Source: Ricinus communis (taxonomy: Eukaryota > Streptophyta > Magnoliopsida > Malpighiales > Euphorbiaceae). Taken from it: a stretch of DNA of 64,000 nucleotides. The notes beneath the pieces were generated by a model. That model did not search any database, had not been told where the DNA came from, and saw nothing but the letters and a program-made list of their open reading frames with translations. Positions 6,762 through 60,114 of this stretch are shown here, piece after piece. The position numbers were made by a program, and so were the translations under genes. The stretch's first letter is position 1; each line of letters opens with the position of its first letter. The stretch spans positions 28,878,342 to 28,942,341 of the forward strand of contig NC_063256.1 in NCBI RefSeq assembly GCF_019578655.1, read 5' to 3'.

Positions 6762-7330
6762 TTGCTTGTTAATTGTGAATGGATTCAAGCTTAGATCAAT
6801 ATGATAAATTTATTGGTTGATTCATCCATTCATACATCAATGAGAATTGCTTATGTTATAGGACAAAAGAAGAAATCACTTGCATTCAAGAAATTTCAAT
6901 TTTGTGTGAAATTTCGAATTCACGGTTGTGATTCATGGGCGCGGTCGCGAAAATGGGCATGAATTGAAGCCTTACTTCTATGGAAAAATTGCCAATTTTT
7001 ACGGTCGTGAACCTAGTCATCGCGGTTGTGAAGCTAGTCAAACTAGCCGTTCTGACAGGAACTTAAAATTCACGGTCGCAAATTGTACGATTCCTGTAAA
7101 TTTTTTGACCCTTACTTTGAACAAATTTTGAGGAGTTAACACTTCTTAAATGAGATTTTACCATTTTGTTGACTGTTTTTTATGCATAAATATCCCACTA
7201 GGCCTTATTACATGCACCTTAAGTATTTCAAACATTCTTCAAGAAAATTCTTCTCTTTCTCAAACCATTCTTTTATACATTTCTACAACCTGCTTCACAT
7301 ATCATCTTCATCTCTCATTTTTTTTCTCAA
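6762..7330 (+). promoter_or_regulatory. Promoter-like spacer before the Sirevirus third ORF
   Basis: No coding potential is seen in these 569 bp. Five copies of a near-palindromic CGGTYGYGA motif lie at about 6921, 6940, 7000, 7020 and 7070 (for example CGCGGTCGCGA at 6940-6950). A TATA-like GCATAAATATCC follows at 7184-7195, then a CT-rich leader up to the ATG at 7331. The same motif type recurs in the element's LTR. Read as an internal promoter for the third ORF; this is inference from layout. Confidence 0.55.
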
Positions 7331-8590
7331 ATGGCTCTTAAGAACACCACTTCCCAAAGGAATAAGGGCAAGGGTAAGGCCTAAGATGAAGATTTTCTTA
7401 CATTATCACTAGGCATACCCATAAGAATGAAGGGTACCACTCAAGAGGCAGGAACCAAGTACAAAACCCTTGCCAAGAAGAAGTTTGAGGCATCTAGAGC
7501 CCTCTAAATGTAGACTTTAGAATGCTTGGGATCTGTGAAGACGTTCTCAAGCACCTCAATAACATTCAAATGGAGAAGTTAGTGTACTTAAGTATGGATG
7601 GGCATAAGGAACAAACTTTAGAGTTCCTAAGTTCTCTAGAAGTGAGCAAGAGGCAAGGAGGAGAACTTGGCTATTTTGGGATGACTTTTAACCTTTTTAG
7701 ACAAAGGTTGCAATTGACAAGGAGTGAACTTGAAAGGATCTTCAACTTCTAAGAACATGGCATCACAACACTCGACGATTTATAAGTAAGTTTAGTTTCC
7801 TTTTGGAAAGAAATTTCTATTGAGACCAAACTTGACAAAAACTCAAATGCTAAACACTTCAAGTCCCTTCTCCATTGGACTCTTCACAGGATCATCACAC
7901 TAAGCCTTCATAGAAGGTATGATGGCAATGAGAAGATAATCTAAAAGGAACTTTGCATGGTCCACAATAGGCCCATTCAATTAACCTACTTCCTCATTGA
8001 TAATCTTCTCCATCTTTCTAAATCTTCTCATGGTTGTGTCATGGTTTCATCTTATATCCCCATGATAGTAAACTACTTCAAACTCCCAACCCCCATAGAC
8101 CTTGTCTTTCTAAAAACTCCTCTATCCTTGAGCACCAACTGTAGAACCATTAAATATTTCCTTCGCTCAAAAGTTCTAAAGAAAAGAGTAATGAGTCTTT
8201 GGAAGTCATTTTGGGTGCTAGTGCCGTGTCATCCATGGAGCAAGCAAGGAAAAAAGAAAAGGGCAAGGTTGAGCATTGAGGCAGGAGAAGAGGAAGAAGA
8301 AGAGGAGGTTGAGGAGACAAGAAGTGAGGAAGAAAGGGCTAAGCAAGAAATGGGTATACCTCAAGGGAGGATTACCCTAAGGGATAAAATGATGATCTTC
8401 ATGACAAGAAAAGCAAAGAGAATTGTGAAGTTCTAGTCTTCTCAAGCATGTTCATGAAGACCTCATTAAAATGAAAAAGCATCATGGGATACCTCCTTAC
8501 CATCCAGATTCTTGGCGCTTATCCGATGATGAGTCTAGTGATGAGGAGGGTAGAGACGAAGAAGAATCAAGTGGTTCAAAGGATATTTAG
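7331..8590 (+). pseudogene. Sirevirus third ORF (accessory / env-like position)
   Basis: A 1260-bp decayed ORF lies downstream of pol, in the place of the env-like gene of Sireviruses. Start ATG 7331 reads MALKNTTSQRNKGKGKA and is then broken. A conserved-looking middle (7522-7752: QMEKLVYLSMDGHKEQ and ELERIFNF; 7957-8160: NRPIQLTYFLIDNLLHLS) resembles the plant retrotransposon ORF-1 / ATHILA ORF family by eye. A Lys-rich stretch then an Asp/Glu-rich stretch follow, and an acidic tail (DESSDEEGRDEEESS) ends at TAG 8588-8590. No clear signal peptide is visible. Function is unknown; the family assignment needs a profile search. Confidence 0.6.
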
Positions 8591-8986
8591 AAGCCATTTA
8601 TTCTCTCATCTCATTTTGCATTGCATTTATATTTTCCATTTCCTTTGTTTTTCATCTTTCTCTCTTTCGTTTCTTTTGTTTTCTTGTACCAATCTATGTA
8701 ATTTTCCATTTTTATTAATATGACTTATTTTCTTTATAAATTAATTGTGATTAATGCTTCCCTATTTTATGGCTTTATATTAATTTCACTTTTGCTCCTA
8801 TGTCCTTTATCCTTCTTTAATGCCTTTACGTGTTTAATCTTTTGAATCTGACAAAGGGGGAGAGAGATAAAAAGCAAAAACATCCTTAACTTACATGCAT
8901 AAATTAAAGGGGAGTCCTGATTTTAAAATTTCTTATCTATTTTTCCTTTTTGCTCAATTTGTTTGCCAAAATAAAAAGGGGGAGAA
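8591..8986 (+). other. Sirevirus 3' UTR with three polypurine tracts
   Basis: T-rich non-coding sequence carries purine runs at 8853-8866 (AAAGGGGGAGAGAG), 8906-8914 (AAAGGGGAG) and 8973-8986 (AAAAAGGGGGAGAA). The last directly abuts the LTR TG and should prime plus-strand synthesis. Repeated tracts are a known Sirevirus property. Confidence 0.8.
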
Positions 8987-9992
8987 TGTTAGCCTAAGTG
9001 CCTTGTCACATGGCTTATTCCCTTATCTTTTGATCTTAACAAACAAATTGTTATTTAAACTAATGTTTCCTTGAGTTTAATGTAGCATAAGTTAAGTAGA
9101 AATACTTCAAAATCGTGACCACACCAAGAGGGCGCGATAGTGAAAATCAATAATTTGGTAGCAGCAACTTCAAGCCTATAATTGCTCAAAATCATGACTG
9201 CATCATGAGGGTGCGACCGCGAAAAATGGAGGTTTCAAAGCAGAAGCTTTTGGCTTGGAAAAGCTTGAAGTCATGGCCACGAAAATTGAAAACTAGAGTA
9301 GCAGATTAAGGCATCAATGATCATATCAGGAAGCTGCCACCATGCCACCACATCAGATAGCCGTGGGAGGCATTTAAACAATTGCGACCGCGATTTGCAT
9401 CTTGACAAGTGCATTTAATGCATTGTCTTAAAGCTAGATTATGTGTACTTTTTAGGATTTACTCATAACGGCTCTTTGAGGTTCTTAGCCTATAAAAACC
9501 ATATTAAAAGGTCATTTAAGGTTGATCAATAACCTCCACAAGTCCACATTATTGTGCTTTCAATTCTTTCTTTCTTGTAATTAATATTTTTCTTTTTTGG
9601 TTGTTGTAAGAGCTTGAATGCTCTTATGACGTTTGAGTGTTGACCAAAACACTTGGTTTAAGGGTTAGTCTAGGAAAACTCTTATAAAGGTTAGCCTAGG
9701 AAAACACTTGTAAGGGTTGTGTATGAGCCTAAGAAACACAATTTGTAAGGTTTAGTATGAGCACTAAAATACTAAGTTGGGAGTGAGCTTGGGAACTCCA
9801 AGTGTAAAGATATAAGTATAGTGAATACCCTAATTGTGAATTGGGGAGTACATGTAGGGTTTGTTAATTTCCAAACCACTATAATTCCTTGTGTACTATT
9901 CTTCATACTCTCTACTCATTCTTCCTTAACAAAACTTTTAATTCACCATCCTTTCTTTATTCACCAATTCAATCCCCTTCTTGGTTCATAAG
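8987..9992 (+). mobile_element. Sirevirus LTR a
   Basis: It starts TGTTAGCCTAAGTGCC right after the polypurine tract. U3 has repeated GCGACCGCGA-type motifs (about 9113, 9131, 9215, 9275, 9384) and a TATA box TATAAAAACC at 9491-9500. The end aligns by eye with the LTR at 60115-61281 (CACCAATTCAATCCCC, then CTTGGTTC), losing about nine bases but keeping the ATAAG that precedes the primer site there. No primer site follows; the next bases are 3' UTR of another copy. Confidence 0.82.
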
Positions 9993-10267
9993 GCTAAACA
10001 CTCTTCTTTATGCTTTTATAAGTTACTCTAATGTTTTTCCCTTTTTGAATTTGACAAAGGGGGAGAAGCTTACATGATTCATTTCATAACTCTTAACTAA
10101 TAATGCATAAAGCGAGAGGGAGCAACATCTTAGGGGGAGTTAAACTACAATCATCAAATTTGAGCACACACTTAATCATTTTTAAACACACACTTACTCT
10201 TACAAAAATCTTTCTAAGTTTTTATCTTTTTTAATCAATTTATTTGTTAAAATAAAAAGGGGTAGAT
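9993..10267 (+). other. 3' UTR remnant of a second, deleted Sirevirus copy
   Basis: This segment resembles 8755-8986: a T-rich stretch, then purine tracts at 10056-10068, 10113-10121, 10132-10139 and a final AAAAAGGGGTAGAT ending at 10267 just before an LTR TG. All coding sequence between LTR a and this UTR is gone. Confidence 0.75.
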
Positions 10268-10819
10268 TGTTAGCCTAATTGCCTTGTCATCCCTTATTTT
10301 GATCTTACCAAACAAATTGGAAGTATTACTGTAATGGTTCTTGAAGTGTTGATATGGTAGCATTAGTTTAAGAATGGTTGCCTCAAGAATCGCTGACGTG
10401 AAGTAGAAACTTCAAGTATATAAAAGCTCAAAATCGCGATTGCACCACGATGGGTGCGATCGTGAAAAGCGAAGTTTCAAGCTAGAAGGAAATGGCTTGG
10501 AAAGCTCGGACTATAATCGCACCTCAAGTGGACGTGACCATAAAACTTGAAGTTTAAAGTAACTATTAGGAACCGCCAATGGTAACATTTGAAAGCCGCT
10601 AATGCCATACCACCACGTCAGATAGCCGTTGGTGGTAGTTCAAGATTCGCGATCGCGAAGTAAGAATCACGACTGTGATTTTACATTCTGACAAGTACAT
10701 TTAATGCATTGTCTTAAAGTAAATTATTGTGAATCTTTTAGGTTATATGAGTACTTGGTTCTTTAGGGTCTTTAGGCTATAAAAATCATATAAAATGGTC
10801 ATTTATGGTTGATCAACAA
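10268..10819 (+). mobile_element. Sirevirus LTR b, cut by a gypsy insertion
   Basis: It opens TGTTAGCCTAATTGCC after a polypurine tract and follows LTR a at reduced identity. It carries the perfect palindrome TTCGCGATCGCGAA at 10646-10659 and a TATA box at 10778. It stops at GGTTGATCAACAA, where LTR a continues for another 450 bp; a gypsy LTR starting TGTC begins at 10820. The candidate 5-bp target site is AACAA (10815-10819). The missing half is not in the window. Confidence 0.78.
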
Positions 10820-12548
10820 TGTCAAAACCCATTTTTCGAATCTAGATATCGAAGGGATTATGGAAAACGCTGTGATGAAATTTACTAACTTCTTGGGTCT
10901 CGGGAGATAAGGACGGGCAAATCCGAGGTTAGGGTTGAGGTTAATCCAGCCAAGATTACCTTTTCAAAATCAATTTAGAGTTAATTGTCAAGAAAAATAA
11001 AGTTTGAGGGTCAAAATGATGGATTTTGCAAGTTCAGGGACTTAATTGTAAATTTTTGAAACTTCCCATGTATAAAGCTGACCGGCTCTACACAGTGCCA
11101 GTTAGGGTTTTCTTCTTCGACGTCATTTTTTTTTTTCACGCTTCTACGTCCAAATACAGGTTCTGAAAGGTAATTAACGATAAACATAGATTTTTAATAA
11201 TATTTATTCAAATCTTAAAGGATTAATATTGGATATTTTATCAATTTATTTTTTGAAAAATGTAAGATTATTAGTTCCTTTAGAATTTCTTTTGAAATCC
11301 TACCTCTATATATAGAAAGTGATAACTAGGGTTAGGGCTAACAAGAAGCCAAAGAACAAGCTGGAGAGAAAAGTTCTGAAGCTAATATTGATTTGAAAGA
11401 AAGAAAAACTTACGTTTATCACTGAGAGTTTAGGTCATTCAAAAGAAGGCCACTAAGATAAAATTGATTTTTGGAAACTTTTTAAAGTCGACAAAGCTTT
11501 TCCAATACCACATCCATCATAGGATTATATGATTAGATTTCTATTTTCATTATGATTTTTTAATCAAATTAGTTTATTAGGATTATATGATTAATCGCCA
11601 TCTTTGTTCTTGTGTGCTCAAGTTTAAGGTTTGTATAGCTTTTAGAGTTTCTAGCTCAATCATTTGTTATTTACTATTTTTATTTTATTTTAATTTTATC
11701 TCTTTCATATTATAATAGTTTTTACCCTCATGCATGTTAAAATAGGCTCTAAGACGTGAGAAATACACAAAAGTTGAAGAAATTAGTCACGGATGCTTGG
11801 AGCCAATCGGCTCTACACCTCCTGCCTATTCTTTTTCTATGTTTATGAGTTTTTGATGTACTTTCATCAATTTTGTATATTGTAGTTAGGTTTTATGGCT
11901 TTTCTTTGCAATTTTAGTTGTAAGCTAGGTTGTAATAGCTAGATTTATCTTTCTATTCTTTATGTTTGTTTGTTTTATGGTTTAATGTATAATAAATAAT
12001 TGTAACATGACTGTCTAATTAAAAAAATGGACATGTAGACTTTAGGTTAAAAATTGGACCGAACATGAAAACTATAGTCCAATAGGCTAATCAACATTAA
12101 TTAGACTTAAGTTCTAAAATTGAAGTAGATTTAGTGAGAATTACCATGTTTTAGTTAACATTAGGTTATATTAGAATTAGGTTCACACAAAATGGGCCTC
12201 ATCATAATATGTAGTCCATCTAGGATTAAAAGCTTGGAAATGCATAACTTGTAATTGGGCTAGACAAGCAGGCTATGGACATAATTAATTAGTAAGCTAG
12301 ATATATAACTCTAATATGGGCTGGGCTTAATAAAATGGGCTAGACCTAGGTAAATTACATTATTATTTGATATGCATGTGTATGAACTACTGTGTTTATA
12401 GGGAATGACTTGTTAAAAAAAAGTAAAGACTAATATACACAAATAAAGAAGCTGGCTTCTGGATCCATCTCTGGATTTGTGGGTAAGCTTCCTTATGGAA
12501 TCTGAGAAACACCACTCATTAGTAAAAGTGTCCCGGTGATTAGCCGGG
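10820..12548 (+). mobile_element. Tat-type gypsy 5' LTR (left-contig copy)
   Basis: It begins TGTCAAAACCCATTTTTCG inside Sirevirus LTR b. A TATA box CTATATATAG lies at 11306-11315. Near-palindromes of the GAGCCAATCGGCTC type occur at 11077-11095 and 11799-11819. The right border is set by the primer-site-like TGGCGACTC at 12549. The same LTR family, diverged, is seen at 24491, at 57.3-58.1 kb (minus), at 58.1-59.0 kb (plus) and near 36.4 kb (minus). Confidence 0.75.
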
Positions 12549-12565
12549 TGGCGACTCTCATCTCC
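12549..12565 (+). promoter_or_regulatory. Probable Tat primer-binding site
   Basis: TGGCGACTCTCATCTCC resembles the TGGCGACTC-type primer site of Ogre/Tat elements and follows a GC hairpin (CCCGGTGATTAGCCGGG). Which tRNA matches is not determined here; the 3' half departs from the usual form. Confidence 0.5.
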
Positions 12566-13321
12566 ATGCTTGTGTTAGTGACTAGTTAGTGTGTTCCCGA
12601 TTAGGTTGAAAAGCCTTATAGTGTCGTGTTCCTGATTCCAGTATATGTGTCTTTAATTTTATTATTTAACAGATCACCATTATCACACATTGTGCACTTT
12701 GGTTCCCATAGCCCTGATGGTGTTGGTTAGTGATTCTTTGGTTCCACTCGAACCTTAGAACTGTGACACTAGCTAACCATCACTCACAAGTAATGAGTGA
12801 ATTTCCTTCATCGCATAGACTCTTTAGTGGGGAGATGAGCTAAGGAAGAACACTTTTTACTTATGGGAACTTTTTATCCTTACCTAAGACTTAGCCCATG
12901 ATAATGACCGTAGTACTCTCCCTTAAGAACCCTATTGCTTGCTGTTTGAGATGTTTCTCTTTATAAGTACTTAAGCCCAAATATTGGAAGGCCTTAGCCC
13001 ATAAATGTGGAATTAGGCCCTAGGCATAAAATACACAAGCTTCCATACTTATACTGATAAATATTGCTTGTTTGTTTTAAATTTGTTTTGAGAGCTTATG
13101 GCATGCGCGTCGGCCTTACTACCCCTTGTTGATAGAGGGCCCAGACCCAAAATCCTAGGGAAGAAGACTCACCATGAACCGTGTGTGGGAGTAGTAAGGT
13201 CGGAAGGATGAATTGTATATTATTATGTGTGCTAGCCTCCCCTTTTCTTCTATCTATGTGCATTGCACGTGCATCATGCATCTCACGCATCGCATGCATC
13301 ATACTAACCCTTGTCTTTTAG
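12566..13321 (+). other. Tat leader with candidate intron 3' end
   Basis: This is a non-coding leader of about 750 bp between primer site and gag. Near its end, CTAAC (13305-13309) lies 12 bases before a pyrimidine-rich TTGTCTTTTAG ending at 13321, the form of a plant branch site plus splice acceptor. The gag-like reading starts just after. A short cluster of GCATG/GCATC words lies at 13260-13300. No donor was assigned. Confidence 0.45.
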
Positions 13322-14875
13322 CCATATAGACTCTCTTGTGGATTGGAAGAGGCAAAATAGTAGGAGATTGGAAAGAGTGCCTATTTCTTTGAGAATCCAA
13401 GCTGTGTTAGAACACCTTGAAAGACCAAGATGCCAAGCTACTAAAGCTACATCTGATATGGCCAACGAGAGAGCTAACGAGCAAGACGTTGAGATCCTCA
13501 AGAACGCTGTCATCAAAGATATAAGGGGTGTGATTCCGGAAGAGCTCCAACAACTCTTGGCTGGGATGGCTGCAAACCAAGCCCACCTGTTGCTCCCATT
13601 GCATCGACTAATCCCCTATTCATTGACTGGTTGTACTTGCCATTTGAGGCTGCTTTACCATTCTAGCTGTCGCGATAATACTAATCTTTGAAGACCTAGG
13701 TAGAAGGGGAGTGCCCCGGAATTTTTGGAATTTGATGATTTATGCTAGACCGGGCTAAGAGGAAGACGCCCTTGCCACCAATGAAGATGTAAGTGGCTTG
13801 GCGCTAGGCTTGACAAAATCAGGTATCTTTGGAAATCAAAGGTTTGGACCTTACCTATGATTTTGAAGAATTGGTTCCGATAGGAGAAGACAAAATTTTT
13901 ATGAAGTTGGAATGCGAGATGAACAAGTTCAGTAGAATTTGGTGATCTGAAAGTTTGTTGAAGTAATATGTAATGATCATGGGAACTACTTAGCTGAGCA
14001 GGACCCAAATTGTTTAACTATTCGTGCTGTCTCTTGAAGGACCCACTGTAAACTAATACCACAGTTCGGAAAAATCCACTAAAGCTGAATGGCGCAATTT
14101 ATATAATTCTTTTATTTAACAGTATGATTACAATATCCATTTAGAAGTGTTGATCAGGGATCTTGAGTCAAGTAGAAACCAAATAAGTCCTTCTCTGATT
14201 TCTTAACCAGATGGAGGAATAAGGCTGGCTAATGAAGAACAAGCCCTCTAAAAAGGACCAAGTTCGTATGGTGGTCTGAAACATTCTTCTAGGATGGGTT
14301 GAAAGGTTGCAGATGATGAACCCGAAAACATTCATGGATTGTACGATGATGGGCTATAGATCGAGGAGATTGAGAACGACAAAAGAAAGATTGTGAGAAC
14401 TGATGGAAGGGCGAATTACCAAGCTGGAGGGAGCATGACCCTGGATGTGAATATTGTGCAACAATTGAGGAAGTTCTCTAGCTCCAAAAAAACCTCTCTC
14501 TAAGATCTTCTAGGGATTGTTACAAAATGGCAATGCTCCAACCTACTACCCTTAAGAACCCATTGAACCCTAATGCACCCGGATATAGACCCAACACCTA
14601 TTGTAAATCCCACTAAGCACCCAGCCACCATACTGAAAACTGCATCTAGCTAAAGCACAAAATTCAGGAGCTTATTGATGCCGGTAACCAACCCAGCACT
14701 AGAAGAAACCCCTTACCAAACTACGACAATACACCATCCCCAAATCAAGTGTCCATGATCAACCCTCATTTTAGTGAAGAGGAGATCATGAACTCTTTTG
14801 AAGACTTATCTAAACTCGAGCCAAAAGCCAAACCAGATAGCCCACAAAGAACCTTCACTGAGTTGGGCCACCACT
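13322..14875 (+). pseudogene. Tat gag (left-contig copy)
   Basis: The N-terminal part reads openly to 13691 (SLVDWKRQNSRRLERVPIS, ERANEQDVEILKNAVIKDIR, EELQQLLAGMAANQ), then breaks. Later fragments read like Tat gag: a segment near 13900-13930 corresponds to PEMNKFNRTGD in the better copy, and NPNAPGYRPNTYC and FSEEEIMNSFEDLSKLEP lie near 14560-14830. Compared with the copy at 27-28.6 kb this one has extra short deletions, so some breaks are likely sequencing errors at a contig end. Confidence 0.7.
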
Positions 14876-15574
14876 AATTGTGGTGTTCCTAAGCCTCACA
14901 ATGGTTAGTATTATTAGTATTACCAAGCCTTCAGGCATGTGACGAACAGGGCAATCGTCTCAGGCATAAGATCTAGGACTTAATCGATTGCGGGGAATGA
15001 AAAGTTGAGCAACTTCCTCAGTATGAGTGCGTAGACCTGCTAGGGCAGCCCTCGGGAAAATTTGACTTTAAGGTATGATATTCGAGACCTCCTTTAGCTG
15101 ACATTCAAAATGAGGATCTTATGCCAAGTGGTTGGGGATCAGACGAAGATCAAGCTGTTTGTGAACCTTGTCTCCTAGAGGTTTGGAAAGAAGGAGAAAA
15201 GAAGTCGGTCACGGCTATCGACATCTGGTATAGCTCTAGGGATGAGTGTGAATTTCAAGATGTCGAGGCCAAGGAGACCCAGGCAGATAATGACTTTTAA
15301 TAAAAGCTGAGGCGGAGTAAAGGTGGGTAAAGCTTGGGTACGGTACGAGCAACATAAGCAAGCACTCATCGGACCATTTAAAGGCTTTAATTCAGGGCCT
15401 TGTTTGGTATAAGCCTTAACCTGATAGCTACCCCAGAAAATGATCAAAATGGTGGTGACAAGACCACTAGGATGATCACCTTCTCGGATGAAGACCATAA
15501 CGGGGAAGAGACCATAATAAGGCCTACATATTGCAACAAAAAGTCAAGGTAAAGAACCCCATGTATGCCCTATT
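14876..15574 (+). pseudogene. Tat protease region, cut by the gap
   Basis: Fragmentary reading continues gag towards protease, up to the N run. The matching segment in the right contig (28563-29266) reads MSVNFKMSRPRRP, FNSGLVWYKP and KVKVKNPMYALLAYS in pieces. This copy is visibly more broken in its last 300 bp (for example at 15300-15360), fitting a low-quality contig end. Confidence 0.55.
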
Positions 15575-16074: not shown

Positions 16075-17396
16075 GGAACTCATTGGAATGCTCACTGCAC
16101 AGGATGAACTCTTAGGAAGGAGGAAGAACAAGAAGAGGAGAGGAGACAAGAAGAAAACCCTTGGCCTCAAAAGCTCCACTAAAACTCAAGAGAGTGAGAG
16201 CTCTAACGGATTGGAATCAAGTGAAGATGAGGATGAAGAACTTGCAATGCTTTCCAAAATGGTCAAGGAAGTCATGAGGAGTAGAAAAAGGAAAGAGGCC
16301 CTTTAAGAAATCATTCTCAAGCTCCAACAACAACTCGACTTCAAAGAAAGCAAGTAGAAGAAGAGTGATCTTACTACTTGAATGTCGTAAAGTAAGAGCA
16401 CATTAAGGCCAATTGCTTCAAGAGCAAAATAAAAAGAAGTTTGAGAAGGAAAAGGAGAAGAGAAAGGCATTCAAAGTCACTTGGGGTGATACTTCATCAA
16501 GTGAAGATGAAGATGAGGAAGTGACCAATCTATGCTCATGGCATGAAGATGAATCAAACGAGGTATGTTCTACATCCCATTCTTGTGAAGACCATGAGTA
16601 TGAAAATAATTTACATTACATGGAGGATGATGACTTCACTTGAGGTCATGAATTTAAAATGTAAAAATATCATTTGAAGATGAAGGTTTATAAAGAAAAT
16701 GCTAAAAACTTGAGCAAGATTTAAATGATCTTCAAAAGAAAATTTCTACATTAACTCTCAAATGATGACCTTAGAAAATCTTTGAATGATCTTTCATCTC
16801 AAACTAATTTCCTAAAATATCTTTCAAAGGGGAATGATTCCTTAGAGGTGGAAGTTGAAGAACCGAGAAGCTCACCTTAAAATTTCATAAGGGAAAGGAA
16901 ACTTTAGACACTCTAATCAGGTCTCAAAGACCCCTTTTAATAAAATATAGATTAGACTTTAATAGTACATCATTATCATCTACCTCATCTCCTTTTACTT
17001 CTAAATTCATCAAGGCCTCAATACTACAAACCTTTTTCATTGAGGGTGTTGACACAAAGGCCAAGAAACACACAAAGCTACACCTTCCAAAAGGAAGGAA
17101 AAGCTCCTCAAGTTCCAAAGCAAGCTTAAAGGAACCAATCATGCATTCATGTATAGGAACAAAGATAAAAACATACATCTAAAACTTGCTCTTGTATGCA
17201 TAAAAAATGTTAAAGATTAAAGGACCCATGCCTCAAGCAAAGAGACATTTTAATAAGAGAAAATTTAATCCAAATGTCAAGTGTCATTATTGCATGAGGA
17301 ATGGGCACATAAATATCTTTGCTATATTAGGAAGGCACAACTCCAACTAGGAGAAACCTTCATGGCTAACCCTAAAGGACCCAAAATAGTTTAGTA
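16075..17396 (+). pseudogene. Sirevirus gag (right-contig copy)
   Basis: Matches the left copy from mid-gag on. The open pieces 16088-16306 and 16413-16643 carry the Lys/Glu-rich linker and the SSSEDEDEEVTNLC stretch. The second zinc knuckle is frameshifted here by loss of one T in a homopolymer near 17320, where the left copy is intact. Extra short deletions relative to the left copy look like base-calling errors. Confidence 0.8.
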
Positions 17397-17434
17397 CCTA
17401 AAAAGAAAGAAAACTTAATTTCATTTTTGTAGGT

Positions 17435-18775
17435 ATGCTTCAAGTCAACTTTAAAAGAAGGAGTTGGTACGTGGATAGCTGTTTCAGGCACATGACCGAA
17501 ATGCGAACCTCTTCTCACTTGAAGAAGATTGATGGAGGGAAGGTAACTTTTAGGAACAATGCTAAAGGTAAAACTGTAGGCATTAGATCCATTAGTAAGA
17601 AATATTTTCCTCAGAATTGATGTTCTTCTTGTTGATGGTTCAAGCATAACTTAATGAGTGTAAGTCAATTGTGTGACAAGGGTAACAAAGTCACCTTTGA
17701 CTCTATGGTCGCCAAGTCACTTCCTTAGGGAATGACAAGGAAATCTTTAGAGGAGAAAGATTTGGCAATACCTACACAATTAACTTGCACAAAATTGCTA
17801 ATGAATCCTTCGAGTGTCTCAGGTTCATTAGTGAAGATTCTTGGCTTTGGTATAAAAGGCTATGACATGAAAGCATGGATCTCCTTCATAGCCTAAAGGA
17901 GGATGAGCTAGTGATTGGATTGCCCAAGGTGAAAGTCACAAAGGAAAAGACATGTGGATCTTGCCAAATGGACAACACAAAGGATCCTTCAAAGCAAAGA
18001 ATGTAGTAAGTACTTCTGTGACCTCTTCAATTAATTAATATGGATTTATTTGGCCCTACTAAAGTTGCTAGCTTAAGAGGAAAACATTATGCATATGCCC
18101 TTGTTGATGACTACTTTAGATTCATATGGGTTAGTTTCTTAGCTCATTAGAATGATGCTTTGAGGCTTTCAAAAGTTCGCAAAAGAGTTCAAAATGAAAA
18201 AGGGTTTTGAATTTTTAAAATAAGAAGTGATCATGGAAAGAAAATTAAAAATATGTTGTTTGAATCATTTTGTAATGAAATGGCATTTTCCATGACTTTT
18301 CATCCCCGAACACCATAACAAAATGGTATTATAGAAAGAAAATAGAACTCTTGTAGAGATGGCTAGAACAATGCCTCAATGAGTATAGTTTACTTACTTA
18401 CTTTTAGGTTGAAGCCACAATGATCATGCTAAAAAGACCTATTTTAAATAAAACGTCTTATGAGCTATGGAATAAGAAAGCCCAAAATTTCATATCTAAG
18501 ATATTTGGATGCAAATGTTATATTTTAAATATCAAGAAAAATCTTGAGAAGTTCTCATACAAAATGGATGAAGGTATATTTTGGGCTATTCCTTTCTAGC
18601 AAAGCCTTTAGGGTATTCAAAAAACGTTTATGGTAGTAAAGAAGTCTATGAATGTTGTTTTTGATGAGTCTAGTACACTTGATCTGTGAAAGGTTCTTTG
18701 ACAATTTTATAGGTGACATTGAGAAAATCGAGATCAATGATGATATAAATCAAAGAGGAAAGTCTTCTTAATCTC
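17435..18775 (+). pseudogene. Sirevirus protease and integrase (right-contig copy)
   Basis: Same layout and shared stops as the left copy. The protease active-site region near 17468-17495 is damaged (several missing bases around the DSG codons). Integrase core pieces (MDLFGP, RSDHG, IIERK) are still visible between 18045 and 18350. The frame is broken more often than in the left copy. Confidence 0.8.
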
Positions 18776-19049
18776 AACCTCATCAAGATGAACCCTCTCC
18801 ACCTCCTCAAGTGGAAGCTCAATAAGAGTTGCTTAGAGAATGGAGGGAACCAAGGGGCATCCAAAGAACTTATCATAGGTAATGTAACTAAAGGTGAAGT
18901 ACTAGATCTCAATTTAAAAATTTCGATTAATTATCTTGCCTTTGTCTCTCAAATTGAGCCAAGGACCATTAGTGATGCTCTTAATGATGAAGATTGGGTG
19001 ATTTCCATACAAGAGGAACTTAACCAATTGAGAGAAATCAAGTTTTGAA

Positions 19050-47000: not shown

Positions 47001-47290
47001 GTGTGAAATGGGCTTAAGAACCCTAACTGCAACTTTATACTGCTTGAGCAACACGGATAGTGTCACTTTTATGCAGAAGATGGCACGGATCGTGTCACCT
47101 CCCTTATTAATTTTTTTCTTCGATGTAATGGCGCGGACCATGTCACCTTTAAGTTAACTTCTACATGGATCGTTTCATAGGGTAGACTCTTTTCTCTATC
47201 ATTTTTCTTCTCGCACAAATAATGTCACTTTTCCTTGTGAAGTGACTAGGACTGTGTGGATAAATAAAAAAACTCCTATGCATTAAATCA
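47001..47290 (-). promoter_or_regulatory. Promoter-like repeats, second env-like unit
   Basis: Six copies of a near-palindrome TGRCACGGAYCRTGTCA (plus-strand reading) start near 47049, 47081, 47129, 47161, 47213 and 47242. On the minus strand they precede a TATA-like AGTATAAAG (about 47035-47043). The same motif is in the Athila LTR at 55031-55243 and in the promoter at 48900-49100. Confidence 0.6.
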
Positions 47291-47586
47291 AAATTCATAA
47301 TTTGGCATGCATATAAATTTCTCATAATTTCACACATATGCACCACAAATTCCAATACAATAAAATAATAAGAAAAATAATAATGAAGAACAATCAAACT
47401 TATCAGTAACTAATTGACAAAGAACCAACTAAATTCAACAAAGATAACACACTATAAATGTATCTTACAGAAAACTAATAACTAAAAAAAAAGATTGTCA
47501 TGTGTTCAACTCATTTAGAGTTGGCACCAAAATACTTAATCAACATGAGCATTAGGCAAAGTCACAGAGAGGAAAGATTGGAGATC

Positions 47587-48705
47587 TTAATCTTCATTGG
47601 ATGAGATTTTCGTAAAAGATTGCGGCGGCACTCCCAAGAATTCAATAGTCTGTTCAACATTGTCATTAATGTTGCTCACCTCGATTTGCATGTCAGTTAC
47701 CATCCTTTTAATCTCATAAATCTCTCTCTTTGCCTCTCTAGCTCCTTTCTCCAGGTTTTTTAATTTCTTCAAAATCTTAGTTTTGATAGAAGACTTGACT
47801 TCCATGTCATCACCCTCATCATCCTTTTGTATTCGGCTATGACTTTCTTGCCATTTATTAATCACATACACCTCATGGACCATATGAATCATTCCCATAG
47901 ACTCTAAAATTTTCAAGTTCAATATCAAGCATCCGAGAATTTGGGGTAGCTCAATTTGCTCTAAATCGAAAGCTCCAACCATCTCTACTATCCATGTGAT
48001 CATACCTCCCACCATTAGATCATACTTATGATTCAGTGTCTAGTTCAAATGGTTGATAAGATAATAACCACTGTTCAGTTTTACCCCCCTTCTTCTACAC
48101 TAGAGAATATACAGCTCATTTCTATATACCTTTTGAATGCTTATATCTCTACCAAAAATTATGCATGACAATAAACTGTATATACCTTAATGCTGGATCT
48201 TTGATGCTGGAAGTAGTGGACTTAGCCGGAACGTATACCGTAGATGACCCCATAATTTTCTTTCAGAATTCTTGTTTATCAAAATTTGGGTCTTCCTCAA
48301 TAGTAGCATTTTTGGGAAAATTAAATGACTCATTAATGTCCTTTAAAGACCTCTTGAACATCAGATGCTTAGATACTTTGAAACACAACTGAGTATTTTG
48401 CTTTGAACCTCTTATGCTTAGGGTGTTCAAGAAAATGAGAGTTAGTTGGCGATAGGCTTTTAGCTTGACTATTACAAAGTAATCCTAACCCACATTGTAT
48501 ATGTACACACATGCCCTCTCCCACAAACCCACTTCCTCAATGTGTCTTGATATAAATAACGAACGGATTCCTACCCCTTATCTTCTAAACTCATATATCT
48601 TCCTTTTTGAAAGAAAGTGAGCCATAGAAAGAGAGTATCAACATCTAGTTTCTCCTCCTTGTGGTGTTTTGCTATGGATTTTCTTAGCTTAAGACCATTT
48701 GCCAT
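47587..48705 (-). pseudogene. Athila env-like (third) ORF
   Basis: Minus-strand start near 48705 (MANGLKLRKSIAKHHKEE). The middle is recognisable in shifted frames: NATIEEDPNFDKQEF near 48310-48265, then STTSSIKDPALRYIQFIVMH near 48215-48160. The last 142 codons are open (48015-47587): VGGMITWIVEMVGAFDL, then a Lys/Glu-rich coiled-coil-like stretch (ILKKLKNLEKGAREAKREIY, VSNINDNVEQTIEFLG). The PALRYI and VIGGIIT-like segments recall the ORF downstream of pol in Athila/Calypso elements. Position and pattern fit; function is unproven. No clear transmembrane helix is visible. Confidence 0.6.
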
Positions 48706-48859: not shown

Positions 48860-49110
48860 TAGATTCCTCAAAAGATGGCTTTTATACTTTTAACACATCA
48901 TGTCCCGCATGGACCATGTCATTTTTAAGGCAAATCTCATATGGACAATGTAATAAAATAGAAGGTCTTCTAAAATCTGACATGGATCATGGTGGTTATA
49001 AGGAGAATTTGACAAGGACTGCGCTACAAAACATAAGGTCTTCTAAAATCTGATATGGACCATGTCACTTCTAAGGTAAAACACACATGGACCTTGTCAC
49101 AACTGATTGT
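48860..49110 (-). promoter_or_regulatory. Promoter-like repeats before the env-like ORF
   Basis: Six near-palindromes of the ACATGGACCATGTCA type start near 48904, 48936, 48977, 49008, 49051 and 49084. On the minus strand a TATA-like AAGTATAAAAGCC (48878-48890) and a CT-rich leader follow. The motif is that of the element's LTR U3. Confidence 0.65.
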
Positions 49111-53891: not shown

Positions 53892-53900
53892 AAAACTTCT

Positions 53901-55467
53901 TGTGGAATTCCTGCAAGTATAAGGATCACACAAAAGTAATTAACTGAGAGTAGAATATCGTCCCACGAGGACTGAATCTATGATAACTGAAATTAATTAG
54001 CTAACTAATATCTAACAACCGATATTGGATTAAAAGAAATAAAAATAAACTTTAGTACTACTTTAAACTAATAAATTATATTCGAGCTAATTAAAACAAA
54101 GGAAAAGATTCAAGCGAAAGGATTACTAGGGCTTTTGATCTCACTTAGATCCTATTATGTTTGACTGAGCTAATGAAAAGAACCTAATATGCTATGCCTC
54201 ACTCACCTAAATTAGTTAAGTTAACCCTTACCTCTAAATTATTAACTCCTACCCTTAATCTCTAAAGGATTCACTCATTTTCTTGAGGGATACTCTCACC
54301 TATTCACCAAGAAATACTCACAATCCCACAAATCTTAAAGGCTCACAAGGCATAGTTAGGAAAAAGAGTGACACTTAGTGTCTAAGAGGCATCTCTACCT
54401 AGTATACTCCTAAGGCAAGCATTTTATCAAGCACCCTGAGTGCAAACGTGTCAGTCAACACCTCAAGCCGAAATAAATTCATATTTATTGGCCAAACAAA
54501 AGAGAATAGCAATTATAACAGAAATCTTGAACATTAAACATAAGAGATTTCAAATTAATTAAGCTCAAGTCAAAATCCAATATTCACTAAGTTAAATCAT
54601 AAACCTAGTAAGGATTTAGTTGTTCATCCTTAAAAGTGTAATAAAAAAGAGAGAAATCAAGGTATCCAAAGTCATTAGAAGCTTAAAAGACATAAAAATG
54701 AAAAATTCAAGAGTTGAAATGAAATGAAACTAAGAGTAAAGAGCAATATTTCTCCAACTCCACTTGCAAATACTTTAGATTAATCTTTCTCGCTTCCAAT
54801 CCTCTTCTCAAGAGCTTGAAATATTTTCCAAAATAAAAACCTCCAAGGAAATCTCTTAATTTCCTTTTTGGTATAAATTCCCAGTTTTTTCTTTTCTTTG
54901 ACGGCTTCCCTTTTACCTTCTTGCCCTAAGTGTCTAAACGATGAGTATTTATAACCCCCTTGATGTTGCTCATGTGTCTTTCAATTAAAACGAAACTTCC
55001 AGCTTGACCGTGTTGGCTTTATGCAAAAAGTGACATGGACCATATCAGGGTGTGAAGCATCTCTTAAATATGAAACCCGCGTGACATGGACCGTGTTATA
55101 AATAGTAGCTTCCTAAGAGATTGACACAGACTATGTCACTTTCCTTCATAAATTGACACGGACTGTGTTGTAAAATAATAGCTTTTCTTCAGGGTGACAC
55201 TGATTGTGTTACTTTTCCTCATAAAATGACACAAACCATGTCAAACACTTGGTCACACAAGGATCTTGAATTCTTGATGCATTCTTGGCTCTTCTTGCTC
55301 ATCCCTTCTTTTACACCCTTCTTTTCTCGATTTTTCTTCTCTTGCTCAAACCTACGACAAAAAGAATAAAAAGTGTGAGAGGGGTCATATTCAACTTAAT
55401 TTGCATCAATTTCTATAAGTTTTTATGCCAAATAGGTCTAATTTGTAGGTGAAATACACTTACATCA
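53901..55467 (-). mobile_element. Athila 5' LTR, minus strand
   Basis: 1567 bp. The minus strand starts TGATGTAAGTGTATTTC and ends GAATTCCACA before the primer site. U3 has six TGACAYRGACYRTGTCA near-palindromes (55031-55243), and a TATA-like GGTTATAAATACTC follows on the minus strand near 54960-54945. The 3' partner LTR was not found in the window. The flanking 5 bp are AACAA (plus strand, 55468-55472). Confidence 0.85.
55031..55243 (-). repeat. TGACAYRGACYRTGTCA array in Athila U3
   Basis: Copies at 55031-55047, 55082-55097, 55122-55138, 55154-55170, 55195-55211 and 55227-55243, e.g. TGACACAGACTATGTCA. The outer TGACA/TGTCA arms pair perfectly in four of six copies. Spacing is about 32-51 bp. 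Confidence 0.85.
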
Positions 55468-56549
55468 AACAAGTTTAGCTTTGAATTTTAGGCCCTCGAG
55501 ATTTTCAAAATATTTGCATAAGTGAAGAGACTTCTACTCCTGAGACACTAGAAGGGAGTAAAATGCTTCCAGACACCACCAAGAGACCTACAAAACGAAA
55601 ACCTTAAGTGGAGAAACAAAGATTTATGTCTTTATGGTTGGTTTGTGGGCTTAAAGGTGTTGAGTTTATGGAAGTGGGTGTTTTGAGGGTCTTTGCCAAG
55701 AAATGTAGACTTTAGGGTGGGGGAGTGCTTTTTAGTTGCTAGAGGTGTTTAATAGAAGAGTTTTAAGGTGGTAGGGAGGTGGTTTAGAGGTGTAATGAAT
55801 ATGGGTTAGTGGTTGCACAAGTATGGAGGTATGTATAAAGGAGTAAAGGATGAAGCTTTTAGGGTTTTATGTGGAAGAAAGTGGCTAGAATTGTTAGAGA
55901 GAATGGTCTAGAGAATGGAAACTTAGGGTTTTTTGTTATTATTAAAGGTTTAGAGTTGTGGCTATTGCTTTATATTTTAATGATAGCATGTGTCCCTAGG
56001 TTTATTCCCACTGCCAAATGCATAAAATTTAGAGTTAATAGCCTTTTGGAGCCTAAACCCATGCAGATTATCGTTTAGGCCACGTGGGCTTTACTAAGAA
56101 TGTGGGCTTCGCTTTGGGCTAACCTTATATGGGCTTAGCTAAGCCCACGTGGAGTTGGCCTTACCCTACGTGGGTTTAAGGTAGTCCATTAGGGTTTTGA
56201 GTCGTGAGTGAGGTTTTCAGGTTCCGAATTAGGGTATTTAAGGATTCTTTTTCTCTCGTTAATGCCTTCTAGAGGTTCTTAGTGTCCTTAGGTGCCTTTC
56301 AAGGCTTTTTTCCCTTTGCTTCTCAAAGTTCACTCTACTAGACTTATCCTAGTCTCACATCGAGCTTATATAGTCGAGGAGCAAAAGTTAAATAATAATA
56401 ATTTGCCCTTTGCTTTGGAAAATGAGTTCTTTAAAAATTAGTTTTGCACGTAAAATAAATTTTGAGAGAATGAGTTTGAGTCCAAGCATAATGAATTAGA
56501 TGTCACCTAATCATGATCTTTGGATTTGAAGTCTTATTTGCTGAAGCAT
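55468..56549. other. Unassigned AT-rich stretch with G-box palindromes
   Basis: No coding sequence recognised. At 56078-56180 are GGCCACGTGGGC (56078-56089), the perfect 16-bp palindrome GGGCTTAGCTAAGCCC (56131-56146) overlapping CCCACGTGG (56144-56152), and CTACGTGGG (56166-56174), followed by a TATA-like GGGTATTTAAGG near 56234. The layout resembles a U3 promoter of another LTR, but no LTR borders are seen. Confidence 0.45.
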
Positions 56550-57215
56550 GAAGCACCACTTCACTGCTGCGATGGATGTTGTTTTATGGCGAAGACACCG
56601 TCTTGCCCCAAGGATAGGAGGCACCATCTCGCTATCTTTTGCATGTTGTGGAAAGGATCAATTTGCTGTGGGAGCCACCATCTCACCACTTTGATTGGAT
56701 GATAGGACATGAGGCAACACCTCACTGGCTAAAATAATTTCGAGAGACACCATCTCACCGTTTGAAGTTGTAGAATACACCATCTTGCTACTTTACTGAA
56801 GTTGCAGGACCAAAGGCACCACTTTACCACTTGAAAAGAATTTTAGGAGACACTATCTCGTCGTTTGAAGTTGTATGAGACACCATTTTGTTACTTTATT
56901 GAAGCAGGAAGCACCACTTCACTATTGATAAATGAGCTCCTATAGGGAAGACACCATCTTGACCTCAGGGTAGGAGGCACCACCTCGCTGTCTGCTCAAA
57001 TTCCGAGAGGCAACATTTCATCATTATTAAGGTCGTAGGAGACACCATCTCGCTACTTGTTAAGGCAGGAAGCATCACTTTTCTATGTTAATAAATGAGC
57101 CCCTATAGAAAAGACACCATCTTGCCCTTAGGATAGGAGGCACCACTGCGCTATTTGCTCGAATTTTGGGAGACACCATCTCGTTGTTTGTTGAGGTTGT
57201 AGAAGACACAATCTT
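56550..57215. repeat. Minisatellite of short inverted repeats with CACCA centre
   Basis: Twenty 13-bp units begin at 56550, 56592, 56618, 56672, 56711, 56744, 56774, 56813, 56847, 56877, 56908, 56948, 56974, 57007, 57039, 57069, 57111, 57137, 57170 and 57203. Each is a 4-base left arm, a CACCA-like centre and a 4-base right arm. Arms come in matching pairs: GAAG/CTTC, AAGA/TCTT, GAGG/CCTC, GAGA/TCTC. Spacing is mostly 26-42 bp, with a higher-order period of about 161-164 bp. No coding frame. Confidence 0.88.
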
Positions 57216-57299
57216 GCTAGTTCTTTGAGGCAATTTCAATTGAATTATACATAAATAATAAAAAAATAAAAGAATTTGATAAACTATAAACATACTAAA

Positions 57300-58107
57300 C
57301 ATGAAATAAAGATTAGAAAAGTCATTAGATAAAAGGGTACTTTCTTAAAATCATGCTCAATTGAGAACGACAGGTGTTGAGGAGGAGGTTGAATCGAGGA
57401 TTGGATAGGAATCTAGAGTGTTTTGGCTATGTGTTTGATTTTTGGAATTTTGTGTATTGCTTCTGAAAACTTACTGCCGTTATGTTGATAATTGCCAACC
57501 TCTCAAGCCTAGGATTTCATTTTCTATTTATTGGGAAGGATAGAGGAAATCCTAGAGACTTAGATATACATTCTTTAGTTATTTGATAAATATCAATAAA
57601 TAAAAATATTTTTGGACTTGTCAAAACTGTTGAATGATGAATATTGATAAATATTGAATAAATCAAAATAATATTAAAAATGTAAATAATAATCAATAAA
57701 ATATATTAAAGACATATTTTTAATTATTTTTAAAAATGCCCTAAAACGACGTCAAATTTTGAAATTAGAGCCATTCTGGACTATGTATAGCCAATCAGCT
57801 TTGGCTCTGTGTACAGTTGATTTGAATGTATGCAGAGCCAATTCGCTCTAGGTTGGCAATTTTTAAAAAATTTTATATTTGACCCCTGAATATTTCAAAA
57901 ATTTCAATTTCATCTTGTAAACTTAATTTTTCTATCAATTTAGTCTAAGTTGATTTCAAAAAATAATTTTTGGTTTAATTATTTGCAACCCTAGCTATGA
58001 TTTAACCATCCACAATCCCTTGAGACTCAGGAAAGGTAATAACTTTCATCATCAGATTTTTCATAATTCTCTCGATATCTAAATCCAGAAAGTGGGTGCT
58101 AACAGGT
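57300..58107 (-). mobile_element. Tat-like LTR fragment, minus strand
   Basis: On the minus strand it starts TGTTAGCACCCACTTTC at 58107. The words TTTAGATATCGAGAG and GAATTATG match the Tat LTR start at 10820-10875. Near-palindromes of the AGCCAATCAGCT and GAGCCAATTCGCTC type lie at 57787-57851. The lower border near 57300 is approximate; a TATA-like AATAAATAG lies near 57515. Confidence 0.65.
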
Positions 58108-59090
58108 TGCCATATTTAGTTGAGTATCTATTTAAATCTGCTTTTGAGTTTATTAATTACTGTTGGTCTATTCAAAATCTATTAATGTTATTTTGCCCTA
58201 GAAATTAGTTTATTTACTTGTTTCGTTATGTTATATATATATATATATTATATTAATCATTATTTTGTATTTTTTATGCATGTACATTGATTATATGGGA
58301 ATTCTGAAGTTATTGTCTGCTTGACTCGGCTTAGAACTAGCCCTACAGCCGATCGGCTATACACAAAGCTGATCTTCACACGATGATCGGATGTTGCTAT
58401 TTTATGCCTATTTTATTCGTATTTTTATATATTTTTCCTATTTTATTCTTGCAAATGTAATTTTATTTTTCTTGCTTTCTTGCTTTCTTTGATATATGTA
58501 ATATGTGAATAGTAGAAAAATATTTGCTTGATTATTAATTAAAAATAACTCATATAGACTTGGGGCTTTAAATTTTGGATTTTGGCATGCAACTTATAGT
58601 CCATTAGGTTAATAAGATGGTGATTAGGCCTAATAATAAATTCAATTACACTTAGATGGATTTTGCCATGTTTAATTAATAGACTGACCCATTTAACTTA
58701 GAAAATTAAAACAGGCTTTGTATGTAAAAAGTAGCCTATTTAGGAATAATGGTTGGTAAACTCGGGGTAGGCTTGATAAAATGGGCTAAAATTAGGTGGA
58801 CTTATAACATGCTGTATTGCTTATGTGTAGAAATATTATGTTGCATTTATAAGGAATAGACTATTAACTAATAAAATTAAAGGTAGGAATACACAATTAA
58901 GGAAGTTCATTTTCAGATCTATCTCTGAATACAGCAAAGCTTCCTTAAGAAATCTAGTTATGCCACGTAAGAAGTAATAGTGTCGTAGTGACTTACCCAG
59001 GTGGCAATGCCCTTTCTCCGTGCTAGTCTATATGACTCGTTAGCATGTTTCCAATTAGGCTAAGAAGCCTTGTAGTGCCATAGTTGCTAA
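58108..59090 (+). mobile_element. Tat-like LTR 3' part and primer-site region, plus strand
   Basis: Follows the LTR's second half at 11600-12620: GTCCATTAGGTTAATAAGATGG, shortened here to GTCCATTAGGTTAATAAG, TGATAAAATGGGCTA, AAGCTTCCTTAAG, then CCCAGGTGGCAATGCCC near 58997 in place of the primer-site region. The perfect palindrome AGCCGATCGGCT is at 58347-58358. It abuts the minus-strand LTR start at 58107, so the two LTR pieces lie head to head. Confidence 0.65.
58222..58251 (+). repeat. AT microsatellite
   Basis: A TA dinucleotide run of about 20-24 bp followed by TTATATT inside the Tat-like LTR part. Confidence 0.85.
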
Positions 59091-59689
59091 GGACATTTAG
59101 TTATGCGCTCGAAACTGCTGCCCATAAACACCTCTTACGATGATGTCAGATGTGATTCTTGAGAGCATTTTGTTCCTCTTGGATATGACCATGTCATATT
59201 GGAGTCCCTCTAGCACCCTCGACCACCAACTGGCTCTAAAGTTGATTCTCCCTCCAAAGTTCACTTCTAGCATATGCACCTATGTGATTAGCGTTTCCTT
59301 TTATTACTTTTTCTTATCTTTACTTTCTTAAAACGTCAGTAGCACATGTATATACATAATCTAACACATTTAAAGAGATCAGTTCGAGCATATACACTAG
59401 CTCATTGCTGCCGGTAGGAGACAATTCTTCATTGTCAATAAAGACTAGAGGGTAAGTTAAACAAAAATGAATATGTATGATATGTATGTATGTTTCTTAA
59501 TGCATGTTTAATCCTTTAGGTTTGTGCAATAGGACCATAAGGGCTTATAGGGGCAAGTTGATGCTCAGCAGTAGTGGATCGAGACTTTGACACTCCAGCT
59601 ATCTGCTCTTCGGACCTAGGGCCTAACGACCGAGTTGGATAAGGGGATGGATGATTTCAGGGAGGGCTCTAGTGAATTCTCTTGACTAT
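59091..59689 (+). other. Intron-containing module, plus-strand copy
   Basis: Homologous to 35413-35960 on the minus strand. The upstream piece reads MSYWSPSSTLDHQLALKL and LPPKFTSSI near 59187-59280. The exon-like piece from about 59376 reads DQFEHIH and LIAAGRRQFFIVNKD, and ends at a GGTAAGTT donor (GT at 59452). An acceptor-like GCAATAG ends at 59532, giving an 81-bp gap. GQVDAQQ and IETLTLQLSALRT follow to a stop near 59685. Stops inside show decay. Confidence 0.5.
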
Positions 59690-60114
59690 TGTAGCTTTTT
59701 TTTTATTTTAGGACACTATTTTGTATTGATACTTATTACTACACTTACTATGGCTATATAACACTGGATTTTGATATTAACCTTTATTGGATGCATATTT
59801 TCATTATTCAACATTAATTTTTACATATATATGACTTGTATGAATGTCAGAATGCAAAAATACATTGAAAAATGAGATTTTGGGACCGGGCCACGTCATA
59901 CAACTGATCGACTATGCATAGAGCCGATTGGCTCTTCACTTGTAGAGTTTGACTTTGGCTTGAGTTCTTGCATTATAAATACACACAATTTTCTTTACCC
60001 TAGCTCTGAAAATATAACTTAGAATAGTGCAACAGCCCTTAGAACCCCTCTCAAAACCCTAACTAGTGATGAATAGATCAAGCTTAGGAAACTCCATCTC
60101 TCTTCCTTCAAGGC
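59690..60114 (+). promoter_or_regulatory. Tat accessory-ORF promoter, cut by Sirevirus
   Basis: Two near-palindromes at 59901-59939 (CTGATCGACTATGCATAG and GAGCCGATTGGCTC), a TATA box CATTATAAATACAC at 59971-59984, a leader, and an ORF start near 60069 homologous to the minus-strand ORF near 34995 (shared CTTGGGAAAC-like and TTCAAGGC words). The Sirevirus LTR begins at 60115, right after AAGGC. Confidence 0.6.

Follow-up and report, generated by a model that had tools for sequence, protein, structure and literature searches.

Palindromes of the LTR recur ahead of accessory genes in Sirevirus, Athila and Tat retrotransposons of Ricinus communis

The nearest described counterpart of the arrays treated here is found in the Sireviruses. 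Bousios et al. 2010 (PMC2829016) reported palindromic repeats (RM boxes, RMs) in 13 Sireviruses, located in the long terminal repeat (LTR) upstream of the TATA box and in all but one with a CGG-CCG core. The nine ENV-bearing Sireviruses also carry RMs in the linker, where 77 of the 79 copies lie upstream of ENV; the four ENV-less ones keep the LTR RMs and have none in the linker. The linker RMs were proposed as support for an internal promoter. Here, a comparable arrangement is described for a stretch of 64,000 nucleotides of Ricinus communis (the window, C1:28878342-28942341 of the 315.5-Mb genome), which is a pile-up of old LTR retrotransposons. In this window not only a Sirevirus (Ty1/copia) but also Athila and Tat elements (Ty3/gypsy) repeat palindromes of their LTR ahead of an accessory open reading frame (ORF). 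The recurrence in three lineages had been claimed by a first-pass annotation, and the models applied to the window together with a genome-wide test bore it out in substance.

Athila and Tat together form the OTA superclade (PMC6317226). For Athila6A, an element annotated for transcription start sites, an ENV ORF promoter was given in 2016 (PMC4977677). In the Tat lineage, gene23 of Grande is transcribed from its own promoter and yields a nuclear protein (Gomez-Orte et al. 2013, cited in PMC7264820 and PMC11963269), and the Retand TRP28 antisense-gene proteins are predicted to bind DNA (PMC11963269). The VANDAL/VANC anti-silencing system (PMC12844716) is a further point of comparison. Neumann et al. 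2019 (PMC6317226) ask whether the extra genes of plant LTR retrotransposons have any function. Statements on published work refer throughout to the parts of these sources that were compared.

Arrays ahead of accessory genes in the window

Three checks were applied to the window: an exact word search with shuffles, models built from LTR words, and a motif-free ranking of 200-bp windows by the 9-mers they have in common with the LTR U3. Each of these checks leads to the accessory promoters. Read by eye, the site cores are CGGTCG (Sirevirus, internal), GCGAYCGC (Sirevirus, LTR), CGG-N-CCG (Athila) and CCG-AT-CGG (Tat); the element borders in the window are by-eye readings as well. A 13.3-kb stretch is present twice (2317-15571 and 16076-29264, 96.8% identity, 500 N between). 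This has the look of two overlapping contigs left unmerged, and the second copy was not counted as independent evidence. A real tandem duplication was considered and rejected on the 500-N gap and on the differences, which are mostly small indels, many of them in homopolymers (one 461-bp stretch aligned).

Sirevirus-1 (plus strand), placed in Ty1/copia by an RVT_2 match to its reverse transcriptase, is represented by its 3' end, that is ORF3 followed by the 3' LTR from 8987. The broken ORF3 (7331-8433, plus) is preceded by five TCGCGGTCGCGA-type palindromes at 6920-7081 (plus) and by a TATA-like box at 7184-7192 (plus; CATAAATA in the window copy). The word CGGTYGYGA occurs six times in the window, against 0.27 expected. 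It had been reported five times at 6921-7085: four copies are exact (6923-7031), and the fifth, in 7070-7081, is one base off. It had also been reported from the LTR U3, where related words are found (TTGCGACCGCGA, TCGCGATCGCGA) and the exact word is absent from the first-copy Sirevirus LTRs. The LTR palindromes lie at 9107-9393 in the 3' LTR (8987-9990, plus, end approximate; TATA 9491) and at 10390-10678 in a second Sirevirus LTR (10268-10823, plus). A model built from the LTR1 words alone gives five matches in the internal block, which the motif-free ranking places fifth, after four windows from another Sirevirus LTR. With 14 CpG in 200 bp the block belongs to the top 0.1% of 3,155 200-bp windows by CpG count. 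A CpG island is no common rule for the arrays, as the first Athila array has only 2 CpG in 200 bp (36th percentile). The polypurine tract AGGGGGAG stands ahead of TGTTAG at the 3' LTR in the window copy and at loci L041 and L045. At 8987-10823, two Sirevirus 3' ends are arranged back to back (LTR, linker piece with polypurine tracts, LTR); they are about 67% alike.

Athila A (minus strand) runs from a 5' LTR near 55.5k to two accessory genes, which start at 48705 and 46812. It was assigned to its lineage by a Ty3/gypsy Retrotrans_gag match and a PF03078 gene after pol. Six 17-bp palindromes lie in the 5' LTR U3 (55031-55243, minus; TATA 54953-54946), spaced 51/40/32/41/32 along the plus strand. 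Six further palindromes, spaced 32/41/32/41/32, precede gene 1 (48905-49099, minus; TATA 48886, ATG 48705), which is env-like and broken (47586-48705, minus). A third array (47049-47259, minus) is followed by a TATA box at 47039 and by the ATG of gene 2 at 46812. The Athila model is a 17-mer built from the six LTR sites. Its matches in the window number 27, against 6.4 expected: besides the 6 training sites there are 6 in 48905-49099, 5 in 47049-47259 and 4 in Athila B (U3, 44054-44118), with 6 elsewhere. The six sites reported before the env-like ORF were thereby recovered in full. Before the second env-like start, for which six sites had also been reported, the array is present with five sites above threshold. 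In the motif-free ranking (2,453 windows) the two internal blocks come first and second. The possibility that the second array belongs to another element was rejected, since three other loci (C7:20.04M, C4:8.28M and C10:1.77M) show the succession of gene 1 and gene 2 on one strand.

Athila B (38.3-45.1k, plus) has no recognised env-like ORF. Palindromes are present in its U3 (44012-44118, plus); neither Athila model finds an internal array in it, and its U3 used as motif-free query brings up no internal block. An inverted LTR (37488-38308) faces the 5' LTR of Athila B, and the U3 is seemingly absent from both at the junction. A third Athila-type LTR, with its U3 at 45280-45728 (minus) and with CACGGCC words, seems to be the insertion site of Athila B.

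Tat-1 (plus) was assigned to its lineage by an antisense accessory ORF after pol, which is broken (34213-35059, minus). Its promoter holds a palindrome pair 20 bp apart (35163-35196, minus), followed by TATA from 35123 downwards. The accessory promoter of Tat-2 near 59.9k has palindromes at 59901-59934 (plus) and TATA at 59974-59981; the start of a homologous ORF follows (60009-60114) and is interrupted at 60115 by a third Sirevirus (Sirevirus-3). Of the pairs reported earlier upstream of the accessory TATA boxes, one member each is matched by the LTR-trained model (35163-35176 and 59921-59934), whereas the other (35183-35196 and 59901-59914) is degenerate and below threshold. Palindromes of the LTR are located at 11075-11088 (U3) and 11800-11813 in Tat LTR1 (10824-12545, plus, ends by eye), and within 57787-58359, where 57788 and 57835 belong to a minus-oriented LTR and 58346 to a plus-oriented LTR piece. 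Two of these sites (11800 and 58346) fall outside U3, on the downstream side of the LTR TATA region. The Tat model gives 13 matches in the window against 6.4 expected, a modest excess. In the motif-free ranking the two promoters come first and third with LTR2 as query, and third and fourth with LTR1, two unrelated windows being ahead.

The 3' LTR of Tat-1 was not found. A Tat-2 cassette in sense after a 5' LTR was considered and dropped on LTR orientation; it is more probable that Tat-2 is a minus element in which the antisense order is the usual one and into which an LTR piece has been inserted. Among the 50 matches listed for the Tat palindrome GAGCCRATYGGCTC in the genome, four close pairs were noted, 20 or about 40 bp apart.

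Relatives elsewhere in the genome

The models were trained solely on LTR words of the window and applied to relatives drawn from the window's own genome. The Sirevirus sample comprised 12 relatives of 3.2 kb each, from 39 non-window rows; the Tat sample 20 promoters of 126 bp each, from 40 non-window rows; and the Athila sample twenty 10-kb stretches, with five loci from the gene-1 query (one also by pattern) and four from the motif pattern. The Sirevirus model gave 41 matches in 12/12 internal blocks (3,960 bases), against 0.40 expected, one copy having a single match only. On the LTR side matches were found in 10 of the 12; of the two stretches without, some may end short of the LTR. The Athila model gave 20 matches in 5/5 gene-1 blocks (0.10 expected; two blocks with two matches each) and 6 in 2/2 gene-2 blocks (0.08 expected), that is 26 matches in 7/7 blocks against 0.18 expected. 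With the Tat model, 22 matches were obtained in 15/20 promoters, against 0.25 expected.

None of 200 column-permuted models equals these counts; their maxima are 19 (Sirevirus), 6 (gene 1), 2 (gene 2) and 10 (Tat). The cross-lineage matrix (41/0/0, 1/26/0, 0/0/22) is diagonal save one match. That the motifs are private to a lineage and shared within it, as was stated at first, is therefore upheld: the LTR models match the accessory promoters of relatives, with a TATA box following. Chance or base composition can practically be dismissed as an explanation. Nothing weighty speaks for it, even if the Tat excess in the window alone is modest, and it is contradicted by the shuffles, by the permuted models and by the backwards-pattern control: the Tat palindrome GAGCCRATYGGCTC is found 941 times genome-wide, its backwards pattern once.

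In the 200 kb searched, the Athila model gave 86 matches against 20 expected, 57 of them within 11 clusters of at least three. The LTR U3 accounts for six clusters and the DNA ahead of gene 1 for three; of the remaining two, one precedes gene 2 and one lies in unassigned DNA (L029, 7306-7395). The Sirevirus model has 0 matches in 18,840 bases of ORF3 DNA against 1.88 expected, and none of the 11 Athila clusters falls in gag- or pol-matched stretches. A lineage-blind scan, open to every recurrent palindrome, failed to single out the Athila A or Tat blocks; three viral-contig scans brought up no relatives. The unassigned stretch (L029:7270-7395) holds four Athila-type palindromes, three above threshold, with 41- and 32-bp spacing and no Athila part matched; it is a candidate for a divergent LTR or a host promoter.

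The distance between sites was counted for neighbours up to 75 bp apart (90 bp for gene 2), window arrays included. In the Athila LTRs, 22 of 32 distances are exactly 32 or 41 bp; the same two values account for 14 of 19 distances before gene 1, and the 32-bp spacing makes up 4/8 in the gene-2 arrays. Sirevirus LTR sites are 19-21 bp apart in 13/17; the internal sites show 19 or 21 bp in 8/25, the next modes being 50 (6) and 60 bp (3). In Tat, promoter sites are 20 bp apart in 6/7; in five 10-kb stretches that contain Tat, 8/13 distances are 20-21 bp. The spacing modes are common to LTR and internal arrays, and many spacings are close to whole helical turns. In the Sirevirus relatives the TATA box stands at one alignment position; it reads TATAAATA in 10/12, while TATAAATG and TATAAGTA occur once each. 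Of the 20 Tat relatives, 17 have a TATA-type match. In those with such a match and with the last palindrome match starting at 51-53, the TATA begins at 104-106, some 40 bp past the palindrome end. Lineage-specific arrays with shared spacing modes stand in many copies at the same position, ahead of a TATA box.

The internal arrays could also be functionless remnants of duplicated U3 DNA, which we regard as improbable. With the motifs masked, the spacer similarity between the Athila LTR and the gene-1 array is equalled by 11 of 1000 shuffles, and a 90-bp piece of the gene-1 query has an 80% match at C2:32.4M, inside an LTR U3 array; both would suit such an origin. However, for the LTR and the gene-2 array 562 of 1000 shuffles do as well (72 of 1000 for array 1 against array 2), although motif and spacing persist at gene 2. 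The spacer sequence of the Athila arrays is mostly lost. In the Sirevirus, blastn at E 1e-3 gives no alignment between LTR1 and the internal block. Position and TATA are kept in divergent copies. The Sirevirus motif columns are also poorer in transversions (5.4%) than the spacers (8.8%) and the downstream DNA (10.9%), which argues weakly in the same direction, since 43 of 1000 random placements are as low. Transitions amount to 27.5% in these columns. Such transition-rich and transversion-poor columns are as expected for methylated CpG words that would once have been under constraint.

A blind prediction had been made for Sirevirus-3, whose LTR (60276-60670, plus) has GCG/GCGC-type words: its ORF3 promoter, beyond the window, should carry the words of its own LTR. 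The region in question (L051, C1:28943700-28944899) lies at roughly the position equivalent to that of Sirevirus-1. Between the pol end (about 310) and the ATG (984) it contains, at about 500-780, a repeat of 151-bp period in which the CpG count reaches 19 per 200 bp. With the own-LTR model two matches are obtained (0.12 expected); they lie in the block and represent two copies of a single repeat. Position and word class were thus predicted correctly, but the LTR model of the other Sirevirus fits better, and the block has no specific closeness to its own LTR.

Accessory proteins and candidate factors

The first-pass annotation had spoken of three unrelated lineages. This did not hold: only two superfamilies are involved, Athila and Tat being sister clades, and two of the accessory genes match one Pfam family. 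PF03078 (ATHILA ORF-1) matches Athila A gene 1 (48140-48541) with 41.3 bits and Sirevirus-1 ORF3 (7519-7959) with 36.5 bits, at a cut-off of 20.2. In a genome search (92 of 342 candidates scored, 91 matches listed), PF03078 was found on the same strand and at most 130 bp after the promoter stretch in at least 14 of 41 Sirevirus rows and at least 2 of 6 Athila gene-1 places, window included and among the matches listed. Pieces of Sirevirus relatives scored 42.5, 26.0 and 24.5 bits, with one at the 20.2 cut-off and one below it (13.8); the Sirevirus pieces window:7945-8433 and L040:920-1306 gave no PF03078 match. When gene-1 pieces were taken alone, PF03078 was not matched by those of L023 and L020, and the window and L028 pieces stayed below the cut-off (15.6 and 19.2 bits). 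In single comparisons, Sirevirus ORF3 matched an Athila gene-2 piece with E values of 3e-5 and 2e-5; its profile comparison with Athila gene-1 pieces is weak (probability 3.8, E 0.011). From these similarities, it appears that one accessory gene family is common to a Ty1/copia and a Ty3/gypsy lineage, which suggests that the gene passed between superfamilies or that it has one distant origin. According to Neumann et al. 2019 (PMC6317226), 16% of Athila elements carry PF03078, and the SIRE extra ORFs form 19 groups that resemble one another little or not at all; in a sunflower study, PF20167 is linked to PF03078 in Athila. In a literature search to which subscription papers were out of reach, no report of PF03078 in Sireviruses was found. 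For Tat, the broken pieces of the accessory ORF have no Pfam match above cut-off, and a protein search with an ORF piece found no relatives.

We infer that the arrays are transcription-factor sites and that the accessory mRNA would start at them. Each lineage would possess a private palindromic operator, and arrays of it, in which spacings of about whole helical turns are favoured, would stand at two or three TATA promoters. Of these, the LTR promoter would produce the genomic RNA, and the further promoter(s) would serve the accessory gene(s). Since a lineage-private operator occurs at both promoters, one factor would switch genome and accessory gene together, and this factor, specific for a palindrome, would be dimeric. 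That in each lineage one dimeric DNA-binding factor acts at both LTR and accessory promoters is probable; the published ENV ORF promoter of Athila6A, the own promoter of Grande gene23 and the linker RMs upstream of Sirevirus ENV also speak for it.

Several points weigh against this proposal, which was derived for this genome from DNA sequence. The training words of the Sirevirus were picked by likeness to the word already seen in the block, and most of the sampled stretches were selected by the motif or by an array-containing query. It is therefore the placement of the Athila clusters, and not their number, that counts as the result; only the L024 LTR cluster and the L035 gene-2 cluster, out of 11, are wholly unanchored. 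The copies are related, so matches and spacings are non-independent and Rayleigh values are not probabilities. Five of the 20 Tat promoters have no match. The Athila matches outside clusters (29/86) slightly exceed the 20 expected in all. Common descent accounts for part of the array likeness, given the spacer likeness between LTR and gene 1. By plain identity, the Sirevirus motif columns (0.67) are less conserved than the spacers (0.79), which may count against constraint. Finally, the Sirevirus-1 LTR model gives six matches in the Sirevirus-3 block, compared to two with its own.

It can also be asked whether the palindromes act at the level of DNA-binding factors at all. They could instead work in RNA or chromatin (as hairpins, in packaging, as insulator or as integration target), the accessory gene being expressed by splicing or readthrough. 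Splicing in Bagy2 and stop-codon suppression in SIRE1 have been published, the palindromes could fold, and Tat copies also lie downstream of the LTR TATA region. On the other hand, the ORF behind the Tat array is antisense and could not be expressed by sense splicing or readthrough, and a TATA box comes after the array in all three lineages. An action in RNA or chromatin is thus unlikely.

If a factor binds the arrays, its origin may be sought in the host or in the element. In the first case, a different host transcription factor per lineage would bind the arrays at both promoters and the accessory protein would not be involved; this version of the one-factor proposal has close to an even chance. 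Athila B, without recognised env-like ORF, retains a U3 array of the same class, as the published ENV-less Sireviruses retain their LTR RMs, and the RMs matched mainly stress-related plant sites (PMC2829016). Three near-private palindromes in one genome are less expected from one shared host factor; three host factors could produce them. In the second case, the accessory gene in Sirevirus, in Athila and perhaps in Tat would encode an element-specific regulator, either a transactivator or an anti-silencing factor, that binds the palindromes of its own promoter and LTR, resulting in a VANC-like self-amplifying loop; the Sirevirus and Athila proteins would be homologous (PF03078), with diverged recognition words. 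We put this forward only tentatively. Lineage-private palindromes together with a homologous accessory family and diverged words lean towards such an element-made factor; env-less elements that keep their LTR arrays lean towards a host factor or a supply in trans. If the element-made regulator is real, the 'envelope' of plant endogenous retrovirus-like elements would be a gene regulator.

For the one-factor proposal as a whole, the sharing of lineage-specific operators between LTR and accessory promoter speaks in favour of selection on regulated expression. The shared operators would tie the accessory gene to the element's own activation, and the question of its function becomes testable.

Other features and comparison with known systems

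Besides the elements described above, the window contains a degenerate-repeat array at 56542-57225 with GGAGGCACCACC-type words.

The match between LTR motifs and accessory promoters had at first been considered new. This is not the case for Sireviruses, where RM boxes in the LTRs and before ENV were already described (PMC2829016). The Sirevirus third of the finding is thus known; for Athila and Tat, the literature search, with its same limit, turned up no account of accessory promoters that share motifs with the LTR. The RM boxes share with the present arrays a palindromic, CpG-containing array before the LTR TATA and before the accessory gene. They differ in being described as Sirevirus-specific among Ty1/copia, and Ty3/gypsy elements, spacing and lineage specificity are not treated in the parts of that paper compared. 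Athila6A (PMC4977677) likewise has an accessory gene with its own promoter, but the sharing of a motif with the LTR is not mentioned in the parts compared. The same applies to Grande gene23 and Retand TRP28 (PMC7264820, PMC11963269), which have the antisense accessory gene of the Tat lineage in common with Tat-1 and for which the parts compared mention no LTR-shared motif. In contrast to the elements of the window, VANDAL is a DNA transposon (PMC12844716); for the retrotransposon arrays, binding by a protein is proposed. What VANDAL/VANC has in common with them is the presence of family-specific arrays of a short motif, which in that system are recognised by a family-specific accessory protein.

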